Positions 22,727 to 31,948 of a stretch of DNA of 64,000 bases are shown here, one piece after another. This DNA comes from Huiozyma naganishii CBS 8797. Lineage: Eukaryota; Ascomycota; Saccharomycetes; Saccharomycetales; Saccharomycetaceae. Both the position numbers and the translations under genes were made by a program. The notes under the pieces were generated by a model. It searched no databases. It was not told the DNA's origin and was given only the letters and a program-made list of their open reading frames with translations. Location: the NCBI RefSeq assembly GCF_000348985.1, contig NC_035924.1:806001-870000 (forward strand), in the 5' to 3' direction. Numbering within the stretch: the first letter of the stretch is position 1; each line of letters starts with the position of its first letter.

Positions 22727-23524
22727 TTAATCGAAAAATCTCTTCATGTTTTGTAACCAGGAAACGTACTCAGCGCCCTCTTTGAATTCAGAGTAAGCAC
22801 TAATAAAGGACGCCAACTCCTCGTTGATCCCTCTGCTTTCCAAGTAAATCTCCAATGTTTCTTGCAGTTCCTCATCTAGGTTAGAAAATGGTGGGCCATG
22901 GTACACCGCATCTTTCTTGACTTGAGCCTCGGCGGTGTCGTCTAATGCCAGCTCTGCGGAAGTATATGGCGTGATGCTGTCAACAAAGAAGGACCTGTCT
23001 TGCAAGTTCATTAGTAAATCGAAAGACAGAGCAGAACCATCGCTTTCTTTGGCTACAACAACGTTGACATTAGCAAAGTTATCGGCCATGGAATCAAAGT
23101 CCTCCTCACCGGCGTCGTCGTCTGCCAAATTTTCTTCCACTGGGGCCTCGTCGAAGGGCAGATTGGCTACCTGTGCCACATCAAAGAATACACGAACAGT
23201 TTCGCCATTATCCGTTTTTCTGACAATCTGTGCCTCGTTCTGTCCCTTGTTCTCGACGACATCGAATTTATACTTCGTCAAGTAGTCCTTAAACAATGCG
23301 GGCACTTCGTCCGAAAACGACTCAGTCTCCACTTTTATCTCAGATTTAAGGATATCGCTGACGTTTTGTCTTTGCTGGTCCCCTCTTACTTGGGTCGTCA
23401 AAAATGTCCTGACAGGGGCGGAAGTAACAGTCAACCTTTTCAAAGATTGAGACACAGCAGTGGTTCTCGTTATAGCGCACACTGGGGTTTTCGTAGCAGC
23501 ACGGCGTAATACACTCAGAAACAT
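22727..23524 (-). CDS. MAM33: Mitochondrial acidic matrix protein Mam33 (p32 family)
   Basis: A 265-residue p32/gC1qR-family protein (266 in S. cerevisiae) of the mitochondrial matrix, linked in yeast to mitochondrial translation and respiratory adaptation. The first about 45 residues form an arginine/serine/threonine-rich import signal ([15 protein letters not shown] through RTFLTTQ). The mature part is very acidic, with [20 protein letters not shown] in the loop, and ends in the conserved helix [30 protein letters not shown] box lies about 80 bases upstream. PCI8 is the neighbour on one side, as in S. cerevisiae; on the other side a foreign-looking gene separates it from RPS24. Confidence 0.95.
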
Positions 23525-23855
23525 GGTAGCAGTGTGAGTCTAATGAGCGCACGTCGTGTTACAAGTTTGCACCTCTCAGCAATGGCGACAGTCAAAGTCG
23601 ACGACCAATTTCAATATTCGTAGGAATTTAAATATCAGTTCTATATTTTTTTAGTCTTTGAAACGATATCACAGTATTCCACACGACAGTTGTATGTGAT
23701 TCATAAAGAATCAAGACAACGCATACCATGCGGCAATGTGATACAATAGTATATTTAGAAAAGATATATCCGTACAGACTCTGGTAATAGACTTCCATTT
23801 CCCACCCATTGACGATTAGTAAGCCGAAGATTGGTCAAAATCAGTTACGACACGT
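23525..23855. other. MAM33 promoter and 3' end of the killer-like gene
   Basis: A/T-rich intergenic DNA with a CCAAT box at about 23605-23609 and no gene. Confidence 0.5.
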
Positions 23856-24665
23856 CTAACAGTATTTACTGGACGATCCAGTAGAACAACCAAGTCTGTA
23901 ATTTTCGTCACCAGTTCTTGGAGCGTCCACATGTTGGACTACACTCCACGAGGAGCATGTGTTACCGAACAGACCCTTCGAACATTTCCTGTGCTGGATC
24001 TTAGCATAGGCAACGTTTTGTTGGTACCAAATTTGGCCGACTTTACCGTGATCCACAGGACAAGAGTAAGTACCACCACGGGTAATGGTCTTGGCAAATG
24101 GGTAGGACAAGCAGCCCCGTAGGATATTGTCGTCAAAATCGTTTCTGAAGCCGCTGCAGGAGTAAGAATAACCCCATCCTAGACTGATTGGCCTTCTGAA
24201 AGGGTTCCCCCAACCACAGTGGGAGATGGGGTACCATGGGGACCACCAACAACCTTGTTCAATGGTAACATACTCGTCCCAAGAACACAACCATCCACCA
24301 ACCACATGCATTACCAAACATCTCTTATGCAATGGGTGGTCTTCCGAGATGGTATCGTTATCACCAACATATTTTTTGGTCAAGTTGGCGTAAACGGACT
24401 CGTTACCTCTCAAAACGATGTCAGTGTTAGCAAAATCCTCAAAAACATCGGTGACGTTTACCCCGTCGGCTAAATTTACAATGTCTGAACCGTTGCTGGA
24501 CACGTGAACTAAACCTTCACCGATGGCCAAATCAGTCTTGTTCTCAACACCTGCACTGCTGCTGTTGAATGATATGTAGTCGACTGCAGCGACTACTTGA
24601 ACGAAAGAAAGAATGGCTATAAGGCACCACGCTAGGCCTGATCGTTTGGTTAGCGTATTAAACAT
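23856..24665 (-). CDS. Secreted Cys-rich precursor with killer-toxin-like architecture
   Basis: A 269-residue secretory precursor of unrecognised family. Residues 1-28 form a classic signal peptide (charged start, hydrophobic core LAWCLIAILSFV, AAV end). Residues 29-115 form an acidic pro-region with seven N-glycosylation sequons (N34, 42, 58, 70, 88, 94, 103). It ends at Lys114-Arg115, a Kex2 cleavage site. The predicted mature part (116-269) has eleven cysteines, many Trp and Gly, and no N-x-S/T sequon. A glycosylated pro-region, Kex2 cut and disulfide-rich product is the layout of yeast killer toxins, but no specific toxin family is identified and the activity is inferred only. A TATA box at 24764-24770 lies between this ATG and an in-frame ATG at 24776, favouring this start. 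The gene is absent between MAM33 and RPS24B in S. cerevisiae. Confidence 0.8.
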   Translation of the reverse strand: MFNTLTKRSGLAWCLIAILSFVQVVAAVDYISFNSSSAGVENKTDLAIGEGLVHVSSNGSDIVNLADGVNVTDVFEDFANTDIVLRGNESVYANLTKKYVGDNDTISEDHPLHKRCLVMHVVGGWLCSWDEYVTIEQGCWWSPWYPISHCGWGNPFRRPISLGWGYSYSCSGFRNDFDDNILRGCLSYPFAKTITRGGTYSCPVDHGKVGQIWYQQNVAYAKIQHRKCSKGLFGNTCSSWSVVQHVDAPRTGDENYRLGCSTGSSSKYC

Positions 24666-24763
24666 GTTCAATACACTGTTTAGATGGTATCTTTTGGGAA
24701 CGGACTGAAAGTAATGATGAAGGGCATGTAAAACATTTATCCGAACACCTTCTCTCTCCTTTC

Positions 24764-24770
24764 TTATATA
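24764..24770 (-). promoter_or_regulatory. TATA box of the killer-like gene
   Basis: TATATAA on the minus strand lies about 100 bases upstream of the chosen start, a normal yeast TATA distance. Presence of a TATA box suggests regulated rather than constitutive expression. Confidence 0.55.
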
Positions 24771-24776
24771 TTGCAA

Positions 24777-25865
24777 AGGTACTTGGCCATCTGTTAACAG
24801 AAACGCTCATCGTGCACAAACCAAAATGTTGGCGGTAACAGGACTTTCACACATTTCAACTACATATGAGACGGAAACCAAAGAACCCTACTTGTTTGTA
24901 GTCAAAGAATGTTCTTCGAGACAGCTTCTACATGAGAAGCTCTTGCCGATGCCCCTTTTGAGTCGAACTTACTCCTGCTAGGGATAACTACTGCCTACTA
25001 CTTAAGGAACATAAGACACATCCCTAACTACACATTTAAACTGGAACGCTTTGCTGATCACTAGTGTACAGAATAGTAGTGCAGTACTAAAAAAATACTT
25101 AATGTGAGAGACCGCTTATACCACGGTGAGTTCATACCATGTGTAGAAGAATCATATCAAGAATATTTGGGTAACGGAGACCATTCTTTCAGCCAATGAC
25201 TTTCCCTTCCCACTTCATAACCTCTCCCGAGAAAATCCTTGTTTGGAAAATCAGTTCATGTTGTAGCACAAAAATACTAACTAGTTTCATATTATGATAT
25301 GCATTTCCCGTGGTGGTTGGCTGCAGAATGCACCAACAGCCTGAAGACCGTTCAAGTCGTATTACCTGTACGTGCTCTCTTTCTTTTCTTCGCTTTCAGA
25401 GGGAAGACATATTTTATTTTCATTTGTAGGGATACTGCTCTAACTGGGTTTAGTGGGGTATTCGTTCTTATTTTCTTTAAAAGGTGCGTCCCGTACCTGC
25501 GTCTTCAGGCCACATATATAACTCTCTTTAAACCATGGTACCACTTTAGACTATATACACCCAGTTGTACAACTACTTTACTTGCTTGAAGATGGCATCG
25601 TATTTGTAATTCTGATAGTGTGTTTAGCGATCTATTTCCAATGTCTCTTGGAAGACACAAGTCAAGAAACTTGAATACTTATCGGTAAAACATTTGCGGC
25701 AATCCTTTGAGTAGTGAACTTACTAAAGATCACACTTCTTCAATGTTTCTTTTTCATATTGTATTGTATTATAATAACTTAAAGTGATATACATGTATAC
25801 ACACTAAGGGTGATAGAAAGGTGGATCATGAGTTTGTCTGACGGTCCTGAGCTTCCCTATCATGC
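24777..25865. other. Long gene-free region beside the killer-like gene
   Basis: About 1.1 kb without a supported gene. A 96-codon frame at 25299-25589 on the plus strand is hydrophobic but looks random. No tRNA, long repeat or recognisable transposon sequence was seen. The unusual emptiness next to a lineage-specific gene could mark decayed insertions. Confidence 0.5.
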
Positions 25866-26709
25866 TTAATCAGCGTTACGACGGGCAACCTTCTTCGCTC
25901 TTCTCTTACCGGTACCGAAGACCTTCTTGTCTCTGTTCTTCTTTTGCTTTCTTTGTTGTCTGGAGGCCTTCTCGACCTTTTCAGCCAAACCGTATCTGAC
26001 CAATCTGTAGGTAGGTTCGAACTTCTTGGCATCGGCAACGGAGTTGTAGACTAGACCGAACCCAGTGGACTTGGCACCACCGAATTGCGTTCTGAAACCA
26101 AAACGGAAAACGGCATCCTTTTCAGCCTTGTAAACCTCAGCGATTTTCTCTCTTAGTTCGTCCTTAGAGACATTGGCTCTGTTTGGGTGCAGAACATCAA
26201 CGACGAACTGCTTTCTAGCCAAAAGTGGATTGGAGATGACCTTTCTGGTACGGATAGTGACACTGTCGGACTATTGAAAACAAGGATATGCATGTTGATG
26301 CAAAACAATTAAGGCATGTTAGTAACGATGAGATTAGGATACCATTGTGTGGATATTTTCAAACGAATACGCTGTATGTTACGAAAGAGGTCGATTGGTC
26401 GTATCAACAGAACTTATTGAACGAATGATGGAATAGGCATAAAACATTTAAAACCATACATTTTGTTAATACCTTTATTGCCGCCCTCCAGTTTGGTTCA
26501 TATAATCAAATGAGTAATATACAATGTTCTGTTCCGTGGAGTTCCTCAAATATGTCATTATATGTTATGAGCGATGGCATCTGAATAACCTGATCTTAAA
26601 AGTGATAATAGTGCTACCATCAAGCCCTAAATTGACCAAAAAATACCCCCAAAATCCGACCTCAACACGCTAGTTCGCTTCATTTTCGTTAGCTTCAATT
26701 ACATACCAT
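25866..26709 (-). CDS. RPS24B: 40S ribosomal protein eS24, spliced
   Basis: A 135-residue eS24 of the small ribosomal subunit, the same length as in S. cerevisiae and nearly identical. Exon 1 is just the start codon (26707-26709); exon 2 is 25866-26270, beginning [15 protein letters not shown]. Joined, the coding sequence is 408 bases including the stop. The intron falls directly after the ATG, exactly as in S. cerevisiae RPS24A and RPS24B. Without splicing the only open start would be Met at the [10 protein letters not shown] position, giving a truncated protein missing conserved N-terminal residues. Its position beyond MAM33 makes it the RPS24B (YIL069C) copy. A Rap1 site lies upstream at 27014-27024. 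Confidence 0.97.
26271..26706 (-). other. Spliceosomal intron of RPS24B (436 bases)
   Basis: On the minus strand the intron begins GTATGT (26706-26701), has a perfect TACTAAC branch point (26324-26318) and ends CAATAG at 26271, about 48 bases after the branch point. These are the budding yeast consensus signals. Its length resembles the S. cerevisiae RPS24 introns. No snoRNA was recognised inside. Confidence 0.95.
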
Positions 26710-27077: not shown

Positions 27078-29108
27078 TCAGGATACACCCAAAAGTGGAT
27101 CATGCCAAATCCCAACGGGCCATTCTAAAATGGCAGCATTTGTGTAGTCGCTTCGATCTTTTTGAGGTGACCCCATTGATACTCTTGCCGCTCTCAAATA
27201 TAGCGGAATACTACCATTAGCACTTTCCTCTATGGCCCTTTCTGCCATTAGTGACAAGTTTTCATTAGTTTCGAAAAGTTCATCTAGATCAATTGTTTTG
27301 TCCTTCCCGATGTATACTTCAATATCGTTCAGTAATAGAGAGAATCCGTTAAGCTCTTCATTTCTAATGTACGATTCTGACGCCGTGGAGTTAACCACTA
27401 AATGCAGTGTATGAGGCGTTTCTTCCTTGAATCGAAATATTGGGGGTGGGGGAGCGGCACCTGCTTCTCCCCGTAGTAAAGCAATATCAGTTTCTACAAT
27501 ACTGGCAAAATCCCACCTTGACACACCTGACAAAACCAAACCTATAAGAATACCTTGAAACATATAAGCAGATGTCCCTCTTGTTGCACAGCCTGGAACC
27601 AAAACGGCACCAAGAATATAATGATGTATTCTCAAATGTAAACCGGGGATAGAGGCTAGGGATACAAGTCCCAAAATGAACGAAATGTATATTTTGAAGA
27701 ATTTTCTAAATCTTCCGGACTTCCAAAGAGAATATGCTTGAATGAAAGCGCAGGTTAAAATGGTCCCTGCAATACACCCAACTGCAGTTGCTGCACCAGC
27801 TTGTTCTTTCAGATCCTTCCCAGTTAACCTGTCGACCGGTAATCGATCAAATGTTATATTGTTCATGATTCCGAGCCATAACAAAGGGTACCACAGAAGG
27901 ATTTTACACAACGGGGAGCAGTCTTCCTTTAACGTCCGCTTGACAGCGCTCTTCCACAGAACGTACAGTACAAAGCACAACGGTAGAAGTCTTTGAAATC
28001 CTAAGCTGAATAATTCGTAAACCGTCGACTCATCGTGTGGATCGACCAACAGTGGAGGGTCCAAAACTAGCACTAAAGTCCAATAACCAACAATAGTGCA
28101 TATCCAATAACCTATTATGCTTTCGTATAAATAAAAAATTGGAAGGCCAAAGAGGATATTCAGGCAGACCACAGTCATCCTTGGATCATGACACCCGGAT
28201 GCTATTCCATTCAAATAAGACCGGAATGCAAAAGAGCTTGGGAAGAATGAATTGAAACCAACTGAAAATTTAGTGTTATGCTTTCCCTCTCTGGATGGGA
28301 ATAGTGTTTGGAAACCCTCCATCGAGATCCGGGCACATCCTCCCCGTGTGGGAGATATTATATCAGCGTGAACTGCAGCACCACAAGCAAAGGAATCAGC
28401 GCGATATGGGTATGAAAAAAGATCAGGCTGCGATGAATCAGACAACTGCCCACCACCTATCTCATACCCCCTATATTTAACCTTGGTTGTACCAACGTCG
28501 ATGGCAGAATAGGTCCATCCACCTCTATCACATAACGCAGGACATCTTATGTAGTATTCTTTGTTATCAAACGGTTCGCACAGCTCTCCCATCAGACCAC
28601 AGGCATTGTTCTTTCCCTCCCAATTCAGATACGAGTTACAGCTCAAAGTTATTATAGGAAGCTTCTCTCCGCCATCGGACGGATAAAAGAAGGGCTTTTT
28701 TATCAAGTACGCATGTATAAGTGAAGATACTATTCCAAACCAAACACAACCATATATTAGCAGAAGAAAAATCCTAACACTCTTTTTGGGGAATCTCGAC
28801 TTGAAGACATCTTCGGGGAAGGCATCAATCTTCCTTAAAAGCTCAAATTTTCTAGGAAAAGCTGGTGGTTCATCATTCGGTTTGTCCGGTCCATACCATA
28901 TTCTGTACAAAATTCTTTTGAAGATATTAGAATGTCTCAGTAAAACCCATTCTTCGCGTCTTCGAGCAGACTCAGTAGACTCAGGCAAATCACCGGATTC
29001 GTTATAGGAGAGGTCCTGAAGTTCCAAGGCTTCATCTGTTAAAGCATGTTGTGGAAATTCGAAGCCAACTTTATCAGTACTTTCCTCGTTGGACATATCC
29101 AAATTCAT
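27078..29108 (-). CDS. YIL067C: LCCL-domain multi-spanning membrane protein (YIL067C-like)
   Basis: A 676-residue membrane protein matching S. cerevisiae YIL067C (678 residues) in length and place, of unknown function. A cytosolic N-terminal region (about 1-108) precedes a first membrane segment, RIFLLLIYGCVWFGIVSSL. A luminal domain at about 160-300 follows, in which YRADSFACGAAVHADIISP and GGC match the LCCL fold (first seen in Limulus factor C, Coch and Lgl1). Several further membrane spans follow from about residue 305 to 530. The C-terminal region is hydrophilic. LCCL proteins of this layout are widespread in fungi; a role in vacuole or endomembrane biology is only a guess. In S. cerevisiae SEC6 lies between this gene and RPS24B; it is missing here. 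Confidence 0.88.
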   Translation of the reverse strand: MNLDMSNEESTDKVGFEFPQHALTDEALELQDLSYNESGDLPESTESARRREEWVLLRHSNIFKRILYRIWYGPDKPNDEPPAFPRKFELLRKIDAFPEDVFKSRFPKKSVRIFLLLIYGCVWFGIVSSLIHAYLIKKPFFYPSDGGEKLPIITLSCNSYLNWEGKNNACGLMGELCEPFDNKEYYIRCPALCDRGGWTYSAIDVGTTKVKYRGYEIGGGQLSDSSQPDLFSYPYRADSFACGAAVHADIISPTRGGCARISMEGFQTLFPSREGKHNTKFSVGFNSFFPSSFAFRSYLNGIASGCHDPRMTVVCLNILFGLPIFYLYESIIGYWICTIVGYWTLVLVLDPPLLVDPHDESTVYELFSLGFQRLLPLCFVLYVLWKSAVKRTLKEDCSPLCKILLWYPLLWLGIMNNITFDRLPVDRLTGKDLKEQAGAATAVGCIAGTILTCAFIQAYSLWKSGRFRKFFKIYISFILGLVSLASIPGLHLRIHHYILGAVLVPGCATRGTSAYMFQGILIGLVLSGVSRWDFASIVETDIALLRGEAGAAPPPPIFRFKEETPHTLHLVVNSTASESYIRNEELNGFSLLLNDIEVYIGKDKTIDLDELFETNENLSLMAERAIEESANGSIPLYLRAARVSMGSPQKDRSDYTNAAILEWPVGIWHDPLLGVS

Positions 29109-29410: not shown

Positions 29411-31948
29411 TCATTGACTGGTCACCTCGCAACCTTCCTCTATAATAACGGCGGTAACGTTAGAAGATATCTTTTCGTTAGAAGATGTTCTGGGAGTCTC
29501 AAGCGAATGATCTTCCAAAGTTAAATTGGATATTTCCCTCAAAGCCGTCGGAGGCATAGAATGTTCGTTAATTTTTGCCAAACGTTCAGTGAATTTGGTG
29601 CCTTGCGGGACGTATCTTGGACGTTTCAAATTAGCGAGATCTGCGACCATGGTAGCAGCCCTATCAGCTACCTTTTGATCAATGGTGAACTGAATTGCAG
29701 CAGATGCAGCTTGTGTCCTCAGATAGTACATACCAGTCTTCAAACCTTTCTTCCAACCGTAGAAATGCATACTGGTGATTTTACCCATTGTTGGAGCTTG
29801 TAAAAATAAGTTCAAAGAATGAGATTGATCAATGTAGATGGAACGGTCGGCAGCCATTTCCAAAATCTTTTTCTGAGATATTTCCCAAACCGTTTTGTAT
29901 AACTCTTTCAACTCATCTGGGATATTTGGCAAACCTTGGATGGAACCGTTGGCCGTAATTAAATGTTGTTTCATACTTTCGTCCCAGACACCCAAATCAA
30001 CCAAGTCCCGAAGCAAGTATGGATTGACGACTTGAAATTCACCGGACAGGACACGACGCTGGTACATGTTGGAGGTGAGGGGTTCGAAACATTCGTTATA
30101 GCCCATAATTTGAGATGTTGAAGCAGTTGGCATTGGGGCCATTGTCAAAGAGTTTCTCAACCCATGCTCAATAATATCTTTTCTCAATGTTTCCCAATCC
30201 CACATCCCAAACGGTTTGGCATCCCACATATCCATTTGGAAAATACCCTTAGACATTGGGCAACCCTCCCAGGAGGAGTATGTTCCATCCTTTTGAGCCA
30301 GTTCACAAGATGCCTCCAAAGACGCATGGTAGATTGTTTCAAATATTTGTTTGTTCAAAGTCCTGGCTTCCTCCGACTCAAACGGTAAACGCAGCAGCAT
30401 ATAAGTATCAGCAAGACCTTGAACACCTAAAGCAATTGGTCTATGTCTCATATTGGAGTTTTCAGCTTCCGGAACTGGATAGTAGTTGTTGTCGATGACT
30501 CTGTTCAAGTTGTGAGTAACAACCTTGGAAATCTCGTGTAGCTTATCGAAGTTATAAGTGGACACTTTCCCATCTTCCGATGTCTCTATGAAGGCCGGTA
30601 AAGCAATCGAGGCAAGGTTACAAACTGCTGTTTCATCTGGTGCAGAATACTCGACAATTTCACAACACAGGTTAGAGGATTTGATTGTTCCCAAATTCTG
30701 TTGGTTACTCTTCCTGTTACACGCATCTTTGTAAATCATAAATGGCGTACCAGTTTCGGTCTGAGCTTCCAGGATTGCGTACCACAATTTGTGTGCTTTA
30801 ATTGTCTTACCACGACCCTCCCTTTCATACCTTTCATAAAGTTGCTCGTACTCTTCACCCCAAACATCAGATAGACCTGGAGCATCGCTCGGCGAAAACA
30901 AGGTCCAATCGCCGTTAGCTTCCACACGCTTCATAAAAAGGTCGGGGATCCATAAAGCGGGGAATAGATCTCTTGCCCTGATCTCTTCCTTCCCGTGATT
31001 TTTCCTGATATCAATGAAGTCAAAAATATCAGCGTGCCATGGTTCTAGATACAAAGCAAAGGCACCAGGTCTTTTGTTACCACCTTGGTCGACATAACGT
31101 GATGTGTTGTTGAAGACACGGATCATTGGAATCAGACCATTCGACGTCCCATTGGTACCGGCGATGTACGACCCAGTTGAACGAATATTGTGAATGTGCA
31201 AACCGATACCACCTGCAGTTTTCGATATCATAGCACACTCCTTCAAAGTGTCAAAAATTCCCTCAATGGAGTCATCTTTCATGGCAATCAAAAAGCATGA
31301 TGACATCTGTGGTCTTGGGGTACCAGCATTGAATAGAGTGGGGGAGGCGTGTGTGAAGTATCTCATTGACATCAAATTGTATGTCCTTACGACAGATTCT
31401 AAATCATCCAGATGGATACCCAAGGCCACTCTCATAACCAAATGTTGGGGACGTTCCGCCACTTTACCGTTAATTCTCAGCAAGTATGACCGTTCTAGTG
31501 TCTTGAAACCAAAGTAATTGTATGCAAAATCCCTGTCATAAACAATAGTGGAATTCAACAGTTCTTTGTTTTTCATCACAATGTCGTAGACCTTATCTGA
31601 AATCATAGGAGCGTGCTTCCCGTTAGCAGGATTAACATAGTGATACAGGTCACTAACAACCTGAGAAAACAGTTTCGTAGTTTGCTTGTGCAAATTAGAA
31701 ATCGCAAGCCTAGCAGCCAAAGTACCGTAATCAGGATGAATAGTAGTCATGTATGCGGCTGTTTCTGCGGCTAGGTTATCCAATTCTTCAGTGCTCACAC
31801 CTTCATAGACACCAGAAATGATTCTCTGAGTGACTATAACAGGGTCAACACGTTTCGGATCTAACCCATAGCAAAGTCTTGTAATCCTGGCCGTGATCTT
31901 GTCAAATCTGACAGGCTCTTTCCTTCCATCTCTTTTTATAACGTACAT
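29411..31948 (-). CDS. RNR3: Ribonucleotide reductase large subunit (R1, RNR3-like)
   Basis: An 845-residue class I ribonucleotide reductase large subunit, which makes dNDPs from NDPs (Rnr1 888, Rnr3 869 in S. cerevisiae). An N-terminal ATP cone (1-90) is followed by the ten-stranded barrel with Cys218 (SSCF), Asn426, Cys428, Glu430 and Cys443, and the YYLRTQ radical-transfer tyrosines near the end. All catalytic residues are present. The extreme C terminus is unusual: R1 proteins end in a CX2C shuttle pair, but here the tail reads GCEVTSQ, keeping Cys840 with Thr843 in place of the second cysteine. The position next to YIL067C and the X-box-like promoter sites favour RNR3 over RNR1. Confidence 0.93.

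Follow-up and report, generated by a model that had tools for sequence, protein, structure and literature searches.

Is the small cysteine-rich secreted protein encoded next to MAM33 in Huiozyma (Kazachstania) naganishii CBS 8797 a killer toxin, and if so of which kind? The gene lies in a 64,000-nucleotide stretch of contig NC_035924.1 (positions 806,001 to 870,000; hereafter the window, whose own coordinates are used throughout), in which an initial annotation had marked positions 23856..24776 as a lineage-specific precursor with the layout of a killer toxin, perhaps of a new family. The minus-strand open reading frame (ORF) at 23856..24665 is a real gene. Taken from the ORF listing and compared by BLASTP and hhalign with K62, the killer toxin of the M62 double-stranded RNA satellite of Saccharomyces paradoxus, it reads as a K62-like preprotoxin-type gene encoding a protein of 269 amino acids (P0001). 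In window coordinates the ORF reaches to 24665, and the annotated end at 24776 includes the promoter.

Relationship of P0001 to the killer toxin K62

A protein search with the single sequence recovered only the gene of P0001 and its paralog KNAG_0L00670 (P0002) at E ≤ 0.001 among 192 candidates. A profile of these two sequences added 12 further proteins among 3203 candidates, all 12 containing the blocks WWSPWYP, WYQ and GCS, with a boundary Lys-Arg (KR) in 11 and RR in P0014. A third profile, which included a quoted 37-residue piece of K62, found the K62 preprotoxin (P0016) among 16 matches from 3816 candidates. Other tests were independent of that quoted piece. BLASTP aligned P0001 with K62 at 31% identity over 267 aa (E 5e-31) and P0002 at 31% (E 3e-39), and hhalign matched alignment A2 (14 members) to K62 with a probability of 100 and an E of 1e-49. 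Searched by phmmer with K62 alone, P0001 scored 100.6 bits (best of 2000 shuffles, 9.4). A profile of 17 relatives (P0004-P0020, K62 included and both host genes left out) gave 142 bits for P0001 and 147 bits for P0002, the best of 2000 shuffles reaching 10 bits.

In a tree of 18 rows, P0001 and P0002 were sisters (100/99) on a long shared stem branch of 1.5, and both formed a set with K62 and P0004 (96/96), within which the pairing of P0004 with K62 was weak (73/42); the midpoint root served for drawing only. P0003, a piece of P0001, was left out of the tree and the shuffle tests, P0015 out of the tree, and P0021 out of the tree, the shuffle tests and the loop-alternation test described below; alignment A5 left out P0015, P0020 and P0021.

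The precursor shares its order of parts with K62. A hydrophobic 15-mer, CLIAILSFVQVVAAV, begins at residue 14 of the signal sequence (residues 1-27; 24585..24665, minus strand, as for all parts of the precursor), and by the signal-peptide cleavage rule the signal would be cut after A27. The pro-region (residues 28-113; 24327..24584) aligns with the N-terminal domain of K62, is acidic (15 acidic against 6 basic residues over 28-115) and contains all seven N-glycosylation sequons (N34, N42, N58, N70, N88, N94 and N103), with none beyond residue 115. It is followed by Lys-Arg 114-115 (24321..24326), the predicted Kex2 site; the further dibasic pairs are KR7-8, inside the signal sequence, KK97, RR157 and RK226. 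The mature part (residues 116-269; 23859..24320) comprises 154 residues with 9 Trp, 18 Gly and 11 Cys (116, 127, 139, 150, 170, 185, 202, 228, 237, 260 and 269). The parts of the precursor described in the initial annotation were confirmed.

K62 has 272 residues, a single KR at 111-112 and disulfides C146-C271, C201-C262 and C227-C237 (PMC13211469). Its KR aligns with KR114-115 of P0001, with no other dibasic pair in K62, and its six disulfide cysteines align with C150-C269, C202-C260 and C228-C237 of P0001 (pairing by alignment). The blocks WWSPWYP, WYQQ and GCS are kept in both. The two proteins differ in that K62 is satellite-borne and P0001 chromosomal, and in that the mature part of K62 has one sequon and one cysteine beyond the six, against no sequon and five further cysteines in P0001. 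Given the homology scores, the aligned disulfide cysteines and KR, and the grouping in the tree, P0001 almost certainly belongs to the K62-like family.

K62 is described as an aerolysin-family toxin with more than 1,000 homologs in fungi, bacteria and plants, including YCL049C (KTA1) of S. cerevisiae (PMC12691639). "Lineage-specific" was not confirmed at the level of the family, and the suggestion of a new family gives way to a grouping with the K62-like proteins of that report. The gene looks like a new and somewhat unusual member of a published family, described only recently, and not like a novel type of toxin. The words Kazachstania and naganishii do not occur in the main text of PMC12691639 or of PMC13211469, and the published tree may include both host genes. 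Open-access literature on K. naganishii and killer, or on K62 and Kazachstania, yielded nothing on the two genes; where PMC11017505 was seen to name K. naganishii, it was only for mating-type genes. No protein search had YCL049C (KTA1) among its named results, and tblastn against plasmids gave no match.

Some relatives have features of their own. P0021 is identical to P0020 as far as the loop and diverges from there in the manner of a frameshifted copy, so decayed copies may exist in some genome. In ten relatives (P0007-P0010, P0012-P0014 and P0017-P0019) the hydrophobic segment (start 50-66) is preceded by some 50-60 additional N-terminal residues, with two Cys-Gly motifs in 9 of the 10; K62 and both host proteins lack this extension. 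The extension may be a lead-in to a signal anchor or a further domain.

Modelled fold and proposed working

The AlphaFold2 (AF2) model of the mature part (predicted local distance difference test, pLDDT, 84.8; predicted template modelling score, pTM, 0.71) is nearly all beta with one short helix. A fold search with the modelled core matched aerolysin-type proteins, so the mature part may have the elongated core of five strands typical of that superfamily, and parasporin-2 is a Protein Data Bank (PDB) neighbour that the core has in common with K62 (for K62, PMC13211469). Sequence searches of solved structures listed none of parasporin-2, SaroL-1, LSL, epsilon toxin or other aerolysin-family structures, and returned chance matches only (EAF3, antibody light chains, DNA polymerase lambda). 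In a BFVD fold search with the full-length model, the only row below E 0.001 was that of a viral glycoprotein (E 9.4e-4, template modelling score, TM, 0.19); a protein from a Malassezia mycovirus ranked 41st (E 0.29, TM 0.26). Pfam scans found no family for P0001 or P0002 at E ≤ 10 or for K62 or P0004 at E ≤ 1; across the 14 members of A2, three families appeared at E ≤ 1, in one member each and at E 0.019 or weaker.

The model bears directly on the K1-like lead of that annotation. A K1-like (KKT) or a K2-like toxin (DUF5341, SMK/KP4 fold) would have the same general layout of signal, pro-region, KR site and cysteine-rich part. P0001 is, however, homologous end to end with K62, and its almost entirely beta mature model differs from the split beta-alpha-beta motifs that the K1/K2/SMK/KP4 group is described as having in common (PMC13404059). 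KKT genes are reported as absent from K. naganishii (PMC7888664), and the Pfam scans at E ≤ 10 matched nothing, the presence of a DUF5341 model in the Pfam copy being unchecked. We consider a K1- or K2-like toxin extremely improbable.

Pore-forming lectins (1w3a, 7r55) among the fold matches, together with the UniRef name of P0002, "Flo11 domain-containing", could suggest a role other than toxicity, for instance in adhesion or glycan binding, for a protein that is secreted or associated with the wall. That name looks unreliable because no Pfam family matches P0002 at E ≤ 10. The same holds for P0001, which by eye has neither a Ser/Thr-rich stalk nor a hydrophobic C-terminal tail for a glycosylphosphatidylinositol (GPI) anchor, and the related K62 kills; a non-toxic role is very improbable.

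The reading we prefer, at a probability of roughly 0.7, is that P0001 is a secreted antifungal protein that is freed by Kex2, oligomerises and inserts a beta-hairpin. The signal sequence would direct it into the secretory pathway, where the glycosylated pro-region, the counterpart of the K62 N-terminal domain, would aid folding and hold it inactive until it is cleaved by Kex2 in the Golgi, C-terminal to KR115. The 154-residue core set free in this way, stabilised by disulfides 150-269, 202-260 and 228-237, would attach to the surface of competing yeasts and then assemble as a ring, whose hairpin of two strands (about residues 162-197) would insert to give an ion-leaking beta-barrel. Cleavage, oligomers, pore and killing are all taken here from K62 by analogy, and added to the homology, layout, cysteine match and modelled fold reported above. 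K62 itself probably acts by forming pores in rival yeasts. Within the family, killing and membrane oligomers stable in sodium dodecyl sulfate (SDS), of more than 250 kDa, have been demonstrated for K62 only, and its Kex2 cut was likewise deduced from size and motif; a KR between N-domain and core occurs in 57% of K62 homologs (PMC12691639). The annotated killer-type, Kex2-processed precursor stands as a resemblance, by full-length homology to K62. That P0001 is itself an active pore-forming antifungal seems to us slightly better than an even bet.

The insertion loop of the two host proteins

The predicted membrane-insertion segment of P0001 (residues 162-197; 24075..24182, minus strand) aligns with K62 160-196 and is one residue shorter and more charged, with two cysteines; its features make pore formation less certain. 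Over the loop aligned with K62 167-192 (P0001 169-193), P0001 has six charged residues and P0002 five, the remaining 18 rows having 0-4; hydropathy is lowest in the host copies (-0.40 and -0.66, against -0.16 to 0.72 in the others). The two loop cysteines of P0001, C170 and C185, have no counterpart in the other 19 rows. The segment has 6 Ser/Thr in 36 residues in P0001 compared to 14 in 37 in K62, P0006 having also 6 and P0004 7. Finally, Arg216, needed by K62, is Asn in P0001, at a site that varies widely among the 20 aligned rows.

These features admit another explanation, in which the host copies keep the K62-like fold with a changed loop and act as a non-pore-forming decoy or dominant-negative immunity factor, joining K62-type rings (external or of the paralog) and blocking insertion. 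The charge of the two copies, which in this loop exceeds that of all 18 other rows, the loop cysteines unique to P0001, the long stem branch that the copies share, the KK of P0002 in place of KR, and the genome-encoded and unexplained immunity to K62 (PMC12691639) would all fit. On the other hand, strand alternation is retained in both (0.45 and 0.68 in P0001, 0.57 and 0.80 in P0002, the 17 others spanning 0.33-0.61 and 0.35-0.67), the interface energy of P0001 (2.07) falls within the range of its relatives (2 of 17 higher), and P0006 carries more charge over the wider segment 160-196 (8 against 7). Moreover, because P0001 and P0002 are sisters, their shared loop charge is probably one event and not two. 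We regard a decoy or immunity role as unlikely.

A firm claim of a lost pore loop was rejected on the intact alternation in both copies and the higher charge of P0006 over the wider segment. A more specific and improbable proposal is that the loop was re-made in the host lineage and, in P0001, latched by a C170-C185 disulfide, which would make the protein a redox-gated pore former, or else a subunit unable to form pores. By poisoning K62-type rings, such a subunit would supply the genome-encoded immunity to K62-type toxins.

Genomic setting and copy number

The gene of P0001 lies on contig C3 of the host genome (10.85 Mb, 13 contigs) and KNAG_0L00670 on contig C12, where P0002 is encoded at 100% identity. 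Genome searches with P0001 (E ≤ 1), P0002, P0005 and P0008 (E ≤ 10) each found only these two places. The two proteins are 45% identical. P0002 likewise keeps the six K62 cysteines and a charged insertion loop, and differs from P0001 in its KK at the cleavage site and in a mature part with one sequon and one cysteine beyond the six. The Nei-Gojobori method (NG86) gave a nonsynonymous rate (dN) of 0.50 and a synonymous rate (dS) of 2.08 between the paralogs (0.51 and 2.52 for the mature part alone). This gives no support for positive selection, in a test that is weak because dS is near saturation. KTA1, on chromosome III, and KTA2 of S. cerevisiae are described as K62-like genes that are also chromosomal in Saccharomycetaceae (PMC12691639; compared by description only). 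About 1.1 kb from KNAG_0L00670, on its upstream side, is an element of about 120 bp (L002:295-422 on C12) that occurs at six genomic locations; inspected by eye, it looks like a tRNA gene with an intron, probably for tRNA-Pro, and ARAGORN in bacterial mode made no call. KTA2 of S. cerevisiae Y55 is situated 1,459 bp from a tRNA gene (PMC12691639).

The annotated neighbours were both found: MAM33 at 22727-23524 (PF02330, E 9e-63) and the second exon of RPS24 at 25866-26270 (PF01282, E 1.1e-35). So was the gene's own TATA box, a TATAWAR (TATATAAG) at 24764-24770 on the minus strand, 105 nt upstream of the ATG, where chance would supply about 0.21 sites per 500 nt per strand. When 11 promoter motifs were compared between the two host promoters, TATA boxes were similarly placed (-105 and -138), and CCAAT and CRCAAA were present in both at differing positions. 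A sign of arrival by retroelement was sought in 24666-25866 and 23480-23870, each of which matched only itself in the genome. Further along, the 676-aa product of a minus-strand gene at 27078-29108 contains an LCCL domain (Pfam E 3.4e-07), and this gene adjoins that for the ribonucleotide reductase large subunit (29411-31948).

Nine ATG frames of at least 30 aa overlap the 1.2-kb interval upstream of the gene; by eye none was a candidate immunity gene, no database search of these frames having been made. The initial annotation's observation that no immunity gene is evident nearby fits K62, whose immunity is encoded apart from the toxin. An absent neighbour says little, since K62 immunity is genomic and not carried on the toxin satellite (PMC12691639).

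In 2025, K62 provided an example of an aerolysin-like toxin among the yeast killer toxins, one that resides on a viral satellite. Two chromosomal relatives in a supported set of four with K62 are useful for asking from which type of yeast gene the satellite toxin came, and the altered host insertion loops are natural variants for testing what a fungal pore needs and whether chromosomal copies confer immunity.
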